From assembly GCA_016932815.1 (NCBI GenBank), contig JAFGCC010000020.1, positions 1 through 64,000 on the forward strand: a DNA stretch of 64,000 bases. The letters are read 5' to 3'. Within the stretch, counting starts at the first letter, position 1; each line of letters starts with the position of its first letter. Positions 28,790-62,582 of the stretch are shown one piece after another. A program made the translations under genes and the position numbers. This DNA comes from Microcaldota archaeon (GTDB taxonomy: Archaea; Micrarchaeota; Micrarchaeia; Anstonellales; Bilamarchaeaceae). The notes beneath the pieces are model-generated. The model had not been told where the DNA came from and did not search any database. It saw nothing but the letters and a program-made list of their open reading frames with translations.

Positions 28790-28915
28790 TATTCCTTTCG
28801 ACGTTAGCCCCCGAACCAAGTTTTAGTTCCTGTATCCTTGTGAATGAACCCCTCCGACGTGAAGCTAAAAGTATTTAAATGCCCTCCTGCCCACCCCTTC
28901 AACAAGGCGATATAT

Positions 28916-29995
28916 ATGGACGACCTGGTAAAATCGGTAGTCGGAGAAAAGGTGCCCGAAGCGTCCCACATGGACGAATCGGACAGCTCGGAGACGATTA
29001 AAATCGTCACAGTCGGTGTAGGTGGTGCGGGAAACAACACCATCAACAGGCTGATAAAGTCCGGGGTAAAGGGAAGCCAGCTTATTGCGGTCAACACCGA
29101 TAAGCAGCACCTAAAGCAGGTCCACGAGAAGGCCAACAAGGTCCTAATCGGGCGCAGCATCACCAAAGGGCTCGGCGCAGGAGGCTACCCAGACCTCGGA
29201 GCAAAATCCGCGGAAGTGGATCGGCCCCTCATAGAAAGGGAACTCGAAGGCGCGCACTTAGTCTTCATCTGCGCAGGAATGGGAGGCGGAACCGGAGGCG
29301 GAGCCGCACCGATTACCGCACAGATTGCAAAGGAGCAGGGGGCAATCACCGTTGCGATGGTGACCTACCCGTTCGCCCTTGAGAGGGCAAGGAGGAAGAA
29401 GGCAGACGAGTCAATCGCAAAGCTCAGGCAGAACTGCGACTCGGTCATCATCCTAGACAACAACCGCCTTGTGCAGTTGGTGCCGAACCTGCCAATGTCC
29501 GAGGCATTCGCGGTTGCAGACGAAATCCTGGCCCGCGCAATCAGCGGGCTTGTATGGACGATTACCCAGCCTTCCCTCATTAACATCGACTTCGCGGACG
29601 TCCGCGCAATCATGCAGGGCGGAGGCGTAGGGTTCATCGCAGTAGGCGAAGGCAAGGGGACCGACAAGGTCACCGGAGCAGCCGATGCGGTAATCAAGAA
29701 CCGCCTCCTCGACGTAGATTTCGAGGGCGCAAAGGGCGCAATCATCCACATTTCCGGTGGAAGCGACCTCTCGCTCGGGGATGCGATCAAGGCCGGTGAA
29801 ATCATCACCGAAAGGATGGACGCAGAGGCCAACGTGAAATGGGGTGCCCGCATAATGCAGAACTACGAGGGCAAGCTCGAAATCGTGGCCATCGTTACCG
29901 GGGTAAAGGGCGCTTCTATTCTCGGAAGGGACTACGAAGCGGAAGAGGAATCCTCCCTCCCCTCCTTCGGCAGCGACCTTGAGATGCTCGGCTGA
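28916..29995 (+). CDS. ftsZ: cell division GTPase FtsZ (copy 1)
   Basis: IVTVGVGGAGNNTINRL, ICAGMGGGTGGGAAP; start trimmed to MDDLVKSVV. Confidence 0.95.
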   Translation: MDDLVKSVVGEKVPEASHMDESDSSETIKIVTVGVGGAGNNTINRLIKSGVKGSQLIAVNTDKQHLKQVHEKANKVLIGRSITKGLGAGGYPDLGAKSAEVDRPLIERELEGAHLVFICAGMGGGTGGGAAPITAQIAKEQGAITVAMVTYPFALERARRKKADESIAKLRQNCDSVIILDNNRLVQLVPNLPMSEAFAVADEILARAISGLVWTITQPSLINIDFADVRAIMQGGGVGFIAVGEGKGTDKVTGAADAVIKNRLLDVDFEGAKGAIIHISGGSDLSLGDAIKAGEIITERMDAEANVKWGARIMQNYEGKLEIVAIVTGVKGASILGRDYEAEEESSLPSFGSDLEMLG

Positions 29996-30093: not shown

Positions 30094-31293
30094 ATGCTAG
30101 ATGGCATCGTAAAAGACGTACTGTCTGAAAAATCCGCATCCTCCTCTGCGGAAAAAGTGGAAGCAGCAGAGCCCGCCCCAGGCGATTTCGAAGAGATTAT
30201 CCGCAATCCCTTAGAGAAAAAACCGGGATTTGAAAATCCGGCTTCCGAACTTCCCCCGTCTTTTAGCGGGAAGAGGGAAGTCGAAGAGAACTCTTCTATC
30301 CGCATCTCCGTAATCGGAGTTGGCGGGGCAGGATGCAACAGCGTAAACCGCATCAAGAAAAACGGGATAAAAAGCGCCCGCACGATTGCGGTAAACACCG
30401 ACAAGCTCCACCTGGGGGTGGTGGAAGCGCATGAAAAACACCTTCTTGGACGCGTAGTCACCCGCGGATTGGGAAGCGGAGGGGACCCTAGCGTGGCCGC
30501 AAAAGCGGCGGACGCGGACAAGGACTCGCTTAGAAAGCTAATCGGGGAAAATGAAATCGTATTCGTATGCGCGGGAATGGGCGGGGGAACCGGGACCGGT
30601 GCCTCGCCCGCAATCGCGAAAATCGCAAAGGAGCAGGGCGCAACGGTAATCGGGGTGGTCACCTATCCCTTTGGCATAGAGCGCTCAAGAATCCACCGCG
30701 CAAGAGACGGGCTCAAGAACCTGATGAGGGAAGCGGACACCGTAATCGTAATTGAGAACGACCGCCTCCTAAGCTACGCGCCCAACCTCCCAATCGACAA
30801 GGCATTCGCGATCGCAGATGAAATCGCATCCCGCGCAGTAAGGGGAATCTCCGACCTCGTAGTCTTCCCAAGCCTCATGAACGTGGATTATGCGGACGTG
30901 CGCGCAATCATGAAAGACGGCGGCCTTGCGATGATTTCAATTGGCAAGGGAAGCGGCACGGGGGCAGGAATGGTCGAAGAGGCGGTTTCTAGCACCCGCA
31001 ACAACCCGCTGCTCCAGGTTTCCTATGAAGGCGCAAAGGGCGCACTCATACACGTTGAAGGAAGCGCAGGCTTGTCCCTTGGGGATGCAACCCAGATTTG
31101 CTGCGGAATAAGCGAGGACTTCCATGAAGATGCGGAAGTGAAGATGGGAGCCAGGGTGAATGACGACCTCTCAGGGATAGCCGTGACCGCGGTAATAACC
31201 GGAGTGAGCGCACCGCATCTCTTTGAGGATGTGCCCAAGGCGGCTGCGCCTATGGAAGCTGCAGAGAGCGAGATTCTAGCTTCCATCCTCTGA
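30094..31293 (+). CDS. ftsZ: cell division GTPase FtsZ (copy 2)
   Basis: ISVIGVGGAGCNSVNRI, VCAGMGGGTGTGASP. Confidence 0.95.
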   Translation: MLDGIVKDVLSEKSASSSAEKVEAAEPAPGDFEEIIRNPLEKKPGFENPASELPPSFSGKREVEENSSIRISVIGVGGAGCNSVNRIKKNGIKSARTIAVNTDKLHLGVVEAHEKHLLGRVVTRGLGSGGDPSVAAKAADADKDSLRKLIGENEIVFVCAGMGGGTGTGASPAIAKIAKEQGATVIGVVTYPFGIERSRIHRARDGLKNLMREADTVIVIENDRLLSYAPNLPIDKAFAIADEIASRAVRGISDLVVFPSLMNVDYADVRAIMKDGGLAMISIGKGSGTGAGMVEEAVSSTRNNPLLQVSYEGAKGALIHVEGSAGLSLGDATQICCGISEDFHEDAEVKMGARVNDDLSGIAVTAVITGVSAPHLFEDVPKAAAPMEAAESEILASIL

Positions 31294-37722: not shown

Positions 37723-37828
37723 GGGCCCGTAGCGCAGCCTGGACAGCGCGGCTGCCTTCTAAGCAGTAGGCCGTGGGTTCAAAACATTTTTTGGAAATCC
37801 AGGAAATGTGAAAATCCCACCGGGCCCG
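37723..37828 (+). tRNA. tRNA-Arg(UCU) with ~31-nt intron in the T-loop
   Basis: GGGCCCG TA GCGC..GCGC G GCTGC CTTCTAA GCAGT AGGCC GTGGG TTCAAA [intron] T CCCAC CGGGCCC G; all stems close only if ~31 nt are removed. Confidence 0.88.
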
Positions 37829-61540: not shown

Positions 61541-61671
61541 AATATCACAAAAAGAGAATTGGCTGATTATCTTTAAAAATCTGTGCGTGCCCGCATTTTC
61601 CGAGGGATTTCCCCTATGGGTTCCACAGTGGCAAATCCACGATATCCCATAAGGAAACCCTATAATGGAAA

Positions 61672-61889
61672 CATTTAAATAGGTGTTGTAATACTATAAG
61701 AAGCTGCGTATTTTGGGGAGGAAAGAAATTGGTCGCCTTGCCAGCCAGCGCGGAACGTTGCGCTGGCCTAATTCTTTTTCTTCTTGTTGAATTGTAAATC
61801 GCATCCACATTTGGGGATATTACTTGCAATTTACAATAGCTAAAAAAGTTTGCGAACTTTTTTATGCCCCGCGGGCGCTCTTGCCCGCG
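61672..61889 (+). ncRNA. candidate structured non-coding RNA unit (TATA-like box, four hairpins, T-run)
   Basis: TATA-like ACATTTAAATAG at ~61671-61682; hairpins 61744-61767, 61791-61837, 61842-61863 (ends in T-run), 61870-61889; no convincing ORF. Confidence 0.5.
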
Positions 61890-61964
61890 AGAGTGAAGCT
61901 TTAAAACTTCCTCTCTAAAGACATACGTACGCTATTGCCCAGATAGGTGCAGGTGGATTGATTT

Positions 61965-62582
61965 ATGGTTGCAATGCTGGACAAGCCCGGAGTGGTCCTG
62001 ACCCTGGTTTTCGGGGCGGTGATAGTGCTCTTTGGGAGCTTTTCCCAGCTCCTGCTAATGTTCGTCTTCTTATTCCTCTCGGTCATGGTGACCAAGTTCG
62101 GCTACCAGGAGAAAAAGGAGATGGGCATATACGAGCATGACCGCAGCTGGGAGAACGTCCTCTCAAACGGGCTAATCCCCACATTGAGCGTGATTGCTTC
62201 GTTCTTCCTGGGCCTTGGCCCGCTTCCTTTCATCTGCTCGGTTTCCGCTGTGGCATCCGACAAGTTCGCTTCGGAATTGGGCGTGCTCGGAGGCTCCCCA
62301 TTGACTCTTGCGGGCTTTGGGGAAGTCAAGCCCGGAACCAGCGGGGCGGTAAGCGTTACCGGGACTCTGATGTCAATCCTGGGCGCAGCCCTCGTGGGAG
62401 TCGCATCGGTTTTCCTCTTTGGGATTACCCCGACTACCGCAATACTAGTGGCCCTTGCCGGATTTGCCGGAAGCGTTGCGGACACCCTCTTTGGGGTGTT
62501 TGAGGAGAAAGGGCTTGGGACCAAGGGCACAACAAATATAATCTGTTCCATAGTAGGAGCATTAATCGGAATGGTGATATGA
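61965..62582 (+). CDS. DUF92-family membrane protein
   Basis: DKFASELGVLGG...GTSGAVSVTGTLMSILGAALVG...GFAGSVADTLFGVFEEKGLGTKGTTNIICS. Confidence 0.87.
   Translation: MVAMLDKPGVVLTLVFGAVIVLFGSFSQLLLMFVFLFLSVMVTKFGYQEKKEMGIYEHDRSWENVLSNGLIPTLSVIASFFLGLGPLPFICSVSAVASDKFASELGVLGGSPLTLAGFGEVKPGTSGAVSVTGTLMSILGAALVGVASVFLFGITPTTAILVALAGFAGSVADTLFGVFEEKGLGTKGTTNIICSIVGALIGMVI

Follow-up and report, generated by a model that had tools for sequence, protein, structure and literature searches.

The locus and its parts

The window, that is, the whole 64,000-nt stretch of micrarchaeal DNA analysed here, holds near its end an intergenic region that precedes a gene for a DUF92 membrane protein (Table 1). 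An earlier note had described two TATA-like motifs and four inverted repeats in this region, all of which are present as described, and had placed the four hairpins in one unit. This grouping stands only for the first hairpin, which lies within a small RNA gene; hairpins 2 and 3 form a dispersed repeat (repeat B), and nothing links hairpin 4 to the RNA. When the genome of the window and 59 relatives were searched, positions 61660-61780 proved to be conserved across genera and families, whereas positions 61780-61865 are repeated within the same genome, so that the four hairpins are not one unit.

Table 1. Positions of the RNA gene, its parts and neighbours, and a candidate target site in the window.
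Feature	Position	Strand	Remarks
Promoter: purine-rich BRE-like GGAAACA and TATA box TTTAAATA	61667-61681	+	TATA box at 61674-61681
Non-coding RNA gene	61699-61780	+	about 80 nt; 5' end inferred about 24 nt past the start of the TATA box, 3' end inferred at the T-run
Conserved core AATTGGTCGCCTT	61727-61739	+	proposed base-pairing seed; AACUGGUCGCCUU in most members
Hairpin P2, GCCAGCGC-loop-GCGCTGGC	61744-61767	+	arms 61744-61751/61760-61767; hairpin 1 of the earlier note
Pyrimidine/U-rich 3' end CTAATTCTTTTTC	61768-61780	+	probable terminator; A3 alignment columns 119-130 T-rich
Dispersed repeat B (hairpins 2 and 3)	61780-61866	+	copies elsewhere in the same genome; outside the RNA
Hairpin 2, ATTGTAAAT..ATTTACAAT	61791-61803/61825-61837		
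Hairpin 3, TAAAAAAGTT-TGCG-AACTTTTTTA	61841-61850/61855-61864		
Hairpin 4, CGCGGGC/GCCCGCG	61870-61876/61883-61889	not set	leader region of the DUF92 gene
Second TATA-like motif GCTTTAAAAC	about 61898-61907		
DUF92 membrane protein gene	61965-62582	+	downstream neighbour; Pfam PF01940, E 1.1e-37
Candidate ftsZ target CAAGGCGAT	28903-28911	+	before start codon ATG at 28916; 9 bp with the core, one G-U

Repeat B, of about 85 bp, consists of a stem followed by the palindrome TAAAAAAGTTTGCGAACTTTTTTA. Other full copies lie at C20:23442, C4:34302 and C25:200463 and a partial copy at C1:23966, and the 59 relatives give short partial matches at most. Pairing in the first stem is kept among the copies through compensatory changes from T-A to C-G, and every copy directly precedes a gene that has the same orientation. 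The repeat could provide a TATA box in its T-rich arm, or an operator in its palindrome.

A small RNA gene conserved across Micrarchaeota

A covariance model built from 44 diverse members matches the window at 61692-61780 with 60.3 bits. Upstream of the core, a TATA-like 8-mer occurs in 137 of 139 distinct homologs, mostly 55-69 nt away and often preceded by a purine-rich element, as against 82 of 139 in shuffled controls; this peaked position is stronger evidence for a promoter than the mere presence of the motif. Because the TATA box lies at a fixed distance, the RNA is predicted to start at a weakly conserved [A/G]CGNNUUCU element, near 61699 in the window, and the T-rich end after P2 would give an RNA of about 80 nt. 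This length replaces the 150-190 nt that had been proposed earlier. Between 61695 and 61895 the DNA folds better than shuffled sequence on both strands (z -2.9 on the + strand, -5.1 on the - strand), so that the strand cannot be told from folding energy alone.

The 5' leader is variable among members, and the core, P2 and the U-rich end are conserved. The core (written AANUGGUCGCCUU as well in the window) occupies columns 53-65 of alignment A3, each of which carries 1.56-2.0 bits across 91 sequences. The common form AACUGGUCGCCUU is nearly invariant, yet it has no consistent pairing, and the mean unpaired probability of the core is 0.63 compared with 0.46 when leader and core are shuffled. P2 behaves as expected of a structured RNA, as the earlier note had supposed this one to be: 97.5% of its cells in the 91 sequences are paired, 82 cells are double-changed, where shuffles give 15.6 and slid controls no more than 8, and its covariation score is 0.322 against 0.134. 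A more sensitive rescan added divergent members with compensated hairpins, such as GCUGGCUC/GAGCCGGC, GCCCGCUCC/GGGGCGGGC and GCUGGGGGGC/GCCUCCUGGC.

By the covariance model, 253 of 301 Micrarchaeota genomes contain the RNA, as a rule in one copy. It is present in 88 of the 96 high-quality genomes and in 104 of 126 genera, and the 60 relatives of Ca. Micrarchaeum A_DKE all have it. The E-values of this short-calibrated model are rough, and the matches lie many orders below the threshold. The model search covered Micrarchaeota, and restriction of the RNA to the phylum is read from the listed matches to a pattern of first hairpin plus core, which recovers at least 116 loci in GTDB genomes. Among the pattern matches listed, all but two (L058 and L101, bacterial) are archaeal and nearly all are of Micrarchaeota type. 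The bacterial or viral matches were rejected as chance hits: L226 lies inside an open reading frame and is weak, as is L058, and L101 reaches 23.5 bits with the core half only.

A literature search returned no description of this RNA, and non-coding RNA goes unmentioned in a 2022 paper on Ca. Micrarchaeum harzensis. The gene is a small RNA gene, previously uncatalogued and without an Rfam match, and we consider its existence almost certain. A gene kept in nearly all members of a deep phylum of archaea whose genomes are reduced, though absent from Rfam, is probably important to the cells.

Genomic neighbourhood

Sister species have the gene order RNA, rtcA, DUF92, and Micrarchaeum-like genomes have a divergent DUF92 gene upstream, then the RNA, then radA. 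Across 112 loci the next gene, often radA or rtcA, is co-directional with the RNA in 99 and on the opposite strand in 13. The rtcA gene adjoins the RNA in several lineages but not in most, and it is missing from the genome of the window while the RNA is kept (the syntenic place has no rtcA; assembly completeness is 91.5%). Repeat B and a short leader (61780-61965) lie between the RNA and the DUF92 gene, where sister species have rtcA. Because the next gene is variable and sometimes on the opposite strand, and because rtcA can be missing, the RNA is best seen as a unit of its own and not as a leader. Together with a promoter at a conserved distance, this supports the earlier suggestion of an independent, unannotated transcription unit.

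Comparison with known RNA classes

The earlier note could place the RNA in no known family, and the Rfam searches agree. Rfam 15 gave two tRNA matches and nothing else in the whole window, nothing credible in the RNA region at E up to 10, and no credible match at the RNA in 16 diverse homolog loci. A weak tRNA match lies at 37723-37781 (31 bits, gathering cutoff 29) and is unreported by ARAGORN. Archaeal RNase P RNA and SRP RNA are single-copy housekeeping RNAs, as the RNA described here is single-copy, and RNase P RNA bears a superficial likeness to its GGGGAGGAAAG stretch; the genome has its RNase P RNA (RF00373) elsewhere, at C1:29929-30183, as it has its SRP RNA (RF01857), at C8:36460-36721, and the RNA is neither of them. 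C/D box sRNAs are marked by conserved RUGAUGA and CUGA boxes, and the 91 sequences have no such conserved columns and no Rfam match. H/ACA guide RNAs carry a K-turn or K-loop hairpin and a 3' ACA box, and here the P2 loops are short and variable, the 3' columns T-rich and without an ACA column. Y RNAs, which bind Ro60 (TROVE) and are found next to rtc genes, are likewise small RNAs near rtcA, as this one is in several lineages. However, 78 of the 79 genomes of the order have no Ro60/TROVE gene (PF05731, present in one), and most lineages have a gene other than rtcA beside the RNA.

Several other roles and structures were tried and set aside. In five genomes the core is no more complementary to 16S and 23S rRNA than expected by chance, leaving no case for an rRNA guide or chaperone, and nothing above chance pairs with RNase P or SRP RNA. 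An outer stem P1 of purine leader and 3' pyrimidines gains no support from a test that exchanges strands among the sequences (p 0.28). A coding sequence was rejected on loop lengths that differ by non-multiples of three, and an antisense open reading frame at 61614-61829 has no Pfam match.

Candidate mRNA targets

Two complete genomes, A_DKE and Fermentimicrarchaeum, were searched for exact complements of the core. Both have the same 16-mer, GCTGGCAAGGCGACCA, as the longest antisense match outside the RNA gene, and in both it lies at the 3' end of one orthologous gene; the longest matches in 200 shuffles per genome were 15 and 14. The product is a coiled-coil and winged-helix-like protein (weak Pfam hits), and in A_DKE a Nop-domain gene lies directly upstream on the same strand. 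The 16-mer covers the last codons in A_DKE and directly follows the stop codon in Fermentimicrarchaeum. Weak model matches read on the opposite strand turned out to be the end of the same gene in three more families, after the stop in L207 (f4), in the last codons in L343 (f20), and as 12 nt matching the core part only in L344 (f5). The 16-mer falls within the reading frame in A_DKE and G112, and its protein reading is not conserved. Since the site shifts between coding and non-coding sequence and its protein reading is unconserved, it is conserved as nucleotides. Its orientation in all five genomes allows pairing of mRNA and RNA, with duplex energies of -37.3 (A_DKE), -36.2 (Fermentimicrarchaeum) and -27.5 kcal/mol (G066) with the own RNA, against means of -13.8 to -15.5 kcal/mol for shuffled cores.

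A second candidate site was found first in G043 of family f8, in which UCACC has replaced UCGCC in the core (GUCACCUU). The ftsZ leader of this genome contains a perfect 15-nt complement of its own core, AAGGTGACCAGTTCC; that is, RNA and ftsZ site changed together. The site was then tested in the window, A_DKE and Fermentimicrarchaeum, and in each of them AAGGCGAU or CGGCGAUC, complementary to the common core, directly precedes the start codon of ftsZ. Not one of 3000 shuffled cores does equally well over these three genomes, and pairing with ftsZ spans 8-10 bp in three of the four genomes. Because the core resembles an anti-Shine-Dalgarno sequence, some pairing at gene starts is to be expected, and ftsZ ranks 3 among 1180 gene starts in Fermentimicrarchaeum, 31 among 900 in A_DKE and 6 among 62 in the window. 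The 16S rRNA ends in AUCACCUC, which makes GGCGAU a mismatched Shine-Dalgarno sequence, so that pairing with the ribosome does not explain the site; the G043 site overlaps an ordinary Shine-Dalgarno sequence. The window has tandem ftsZ genes (28916-29944 and 30271-31221), and the start codon of the first is preceded by a mismatched Shine-Dalgarno, AAGGCGAT. A wide regulon was rejected, as the number of 5' hits common to A_DKE and Fermentimicrarchaeum is about that expected by estimate.

Proposed function and alternatives

We propose that a trans-acting base-pairing small RNA, conserved phylum-wide, is the best reading of the sequence evidence, and we think it somewhat probable given the independent promoter, the seed-like core, the terminator-like end and the recurring antisense sites. 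The core would be an accessible, conserved seed with predicted complementarity to the 3' end of the winged-helix mRNA in five genomes and to the ftsZ ribosome-binding site in four. With the former it would pair over 16 nt, invading the 5' strand of P2, and this pairing may change the stability of the mRNA or allow the mRNA to titrate the RNA. With the latter it would pair over 8-15 nt, and translation of FtsZ would be blocked. The step from site to regulation is one that we infer, and its direction is a guess. More tentatively, and with doubt outweighing belief, we suggest that one ancient, near-invariant RNA exerts division control phylum-wide, its seed blocking the ftsZ ribosome-binding site and a 16-nt site at the mRNA end of a conserved winged-helix regulator tying the RNA to that regulator. 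If this pairing with ftsZ and one regulator throughout the phylum is true, such an sRNA circuit would be exceptional in its age and stability, and it would offer a handle on division control in host-dependent DPANN archaea.

It is unusual for an sRNA to have a seed so strongly conserved across a phylum, and such conservation would fit a protein-binding site too. The RNA could accordingly be a housekeeping RNA whose invariant core binds a protein, as a scaffold or part of a ribonucleoprotein, with no mRNA pairing. Its near-universal, single-copy occurrence in a phylum of reduced genomes fits this idea, as does a core stricter in conservation than most sRNA seeds. We nonetheless find it unlikely, because it leaves unexplained why the longest antisense match falls in the same gene in two genomes and recurs in three more families, or why the ftsZ site of G043 changed to match; moreover, Ro60, the partner of Y RNA, is absent from 78 of 79 genomes. 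A related idea is that the 16-nt element is a protein-binding motif in DNA or RNA that occurs both in the RNA gene and at the end of the winged-helix gene, for example as an autoregulatory site of the winged-helix protein. The same 16-mer does stand at both places, and the gene encodes a winged-helix-like protein (by weak Pfam hits), but the mRNA element is antisense to the RNA in all five genomes, G066 retains only 12 nt complementary to the core, and the ftsZ sites follow the core and not a fixed 16-mer, all of which make this idea improbable.

P2 and the T-run could also be read as the terminator of a cis-acting leader, a riboswitch or attenuator with CUGG/CCAG as antiterminator, and the mostly co-directional next gene, often radA or rtcA, would agree with this. 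Yet the downstream gene differs by lineage and can lie on the opposite strand, the RNA stays where rtcA is missing, and there is one copy per genome. The antiterminator, in which CUGG would instead pair with the 5' strand of P2, is not conserved and is disfavoured as well, because CUGG is kept while CCAG varies (L187, L190, L191). Such a leader is therefore very improbable. That the locus holds nothing other than chance hairpins, a decayed gene or a repeat is true of hairpins 2 and 3 as far as the repeat goes; it is refuted for hairpin 1 by the conservation of the first 120 nt through the phylum with compensatory changes, and we give it next to no credence.

For the base-pairing sRNA that we favour, comparable systems exist in bacteria and archaea. 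Bacterial trans-acting sRNAs of the Hfq/ProQ type carry a terminator hairpin and U-tail behind an exposed seed, and form short pairings with ribosome-binding sites. The micrarchaeal RNA has the same plan of seed, hairpin and U-tail, but with an archaeal promoter and a chaperone that is putative at most, and to our knowledge it is rare for bacterial sRNA seeds to be conserved phylum-wide. As to how the micrarchaeal RNA may work, the closest model is an archaeal intergenic RNA, sRNA162 of Methanosarcina mazei, in which a single-stranded linker is reported to pair with an mRNA encoded in trans, thereby masking the ribosome-binding site of a gene for a transcription factor (PMC3510493). No homology between the two RNAs is seen, and sRNA162 is described for one methanogen whereas the near-invariant core described here spans a whole phylum. 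The sites proposed for the micrarchaeal RNA are also others, namely a gene 3' end and ftsZ.

Altered, missing and divergent copies

Two families have altered cores, CUGGCUACCUU in f8 and UCGCCCUGCCCGC in f24. If the pairing is true, these cores predict the complements AAGGUAGCCAG and AGGGCGACCA, respectively. Genus g28 of family f8 (G052, G055 and G080-G082, with genomes of 0.5-0.6 Mb) has no convincing copy of the RNA, which suggests loss with extreme genome reduction. The homolog at L197:1501-1587 (G186) has leader, hairpin and end intact around a scrambled core, GUCUUUUGCUCUCAUU, which may be an assembly error or a loss of the seed. Possible divergent versions of the RNA occur in family f19 at L210:1501-1532 and L212:1501-1530 (CGCCACCGCCAGUCC..GGACUGGCCUAAUUCU), where the core is mostly lost and the hairpin and 3' end are retained.
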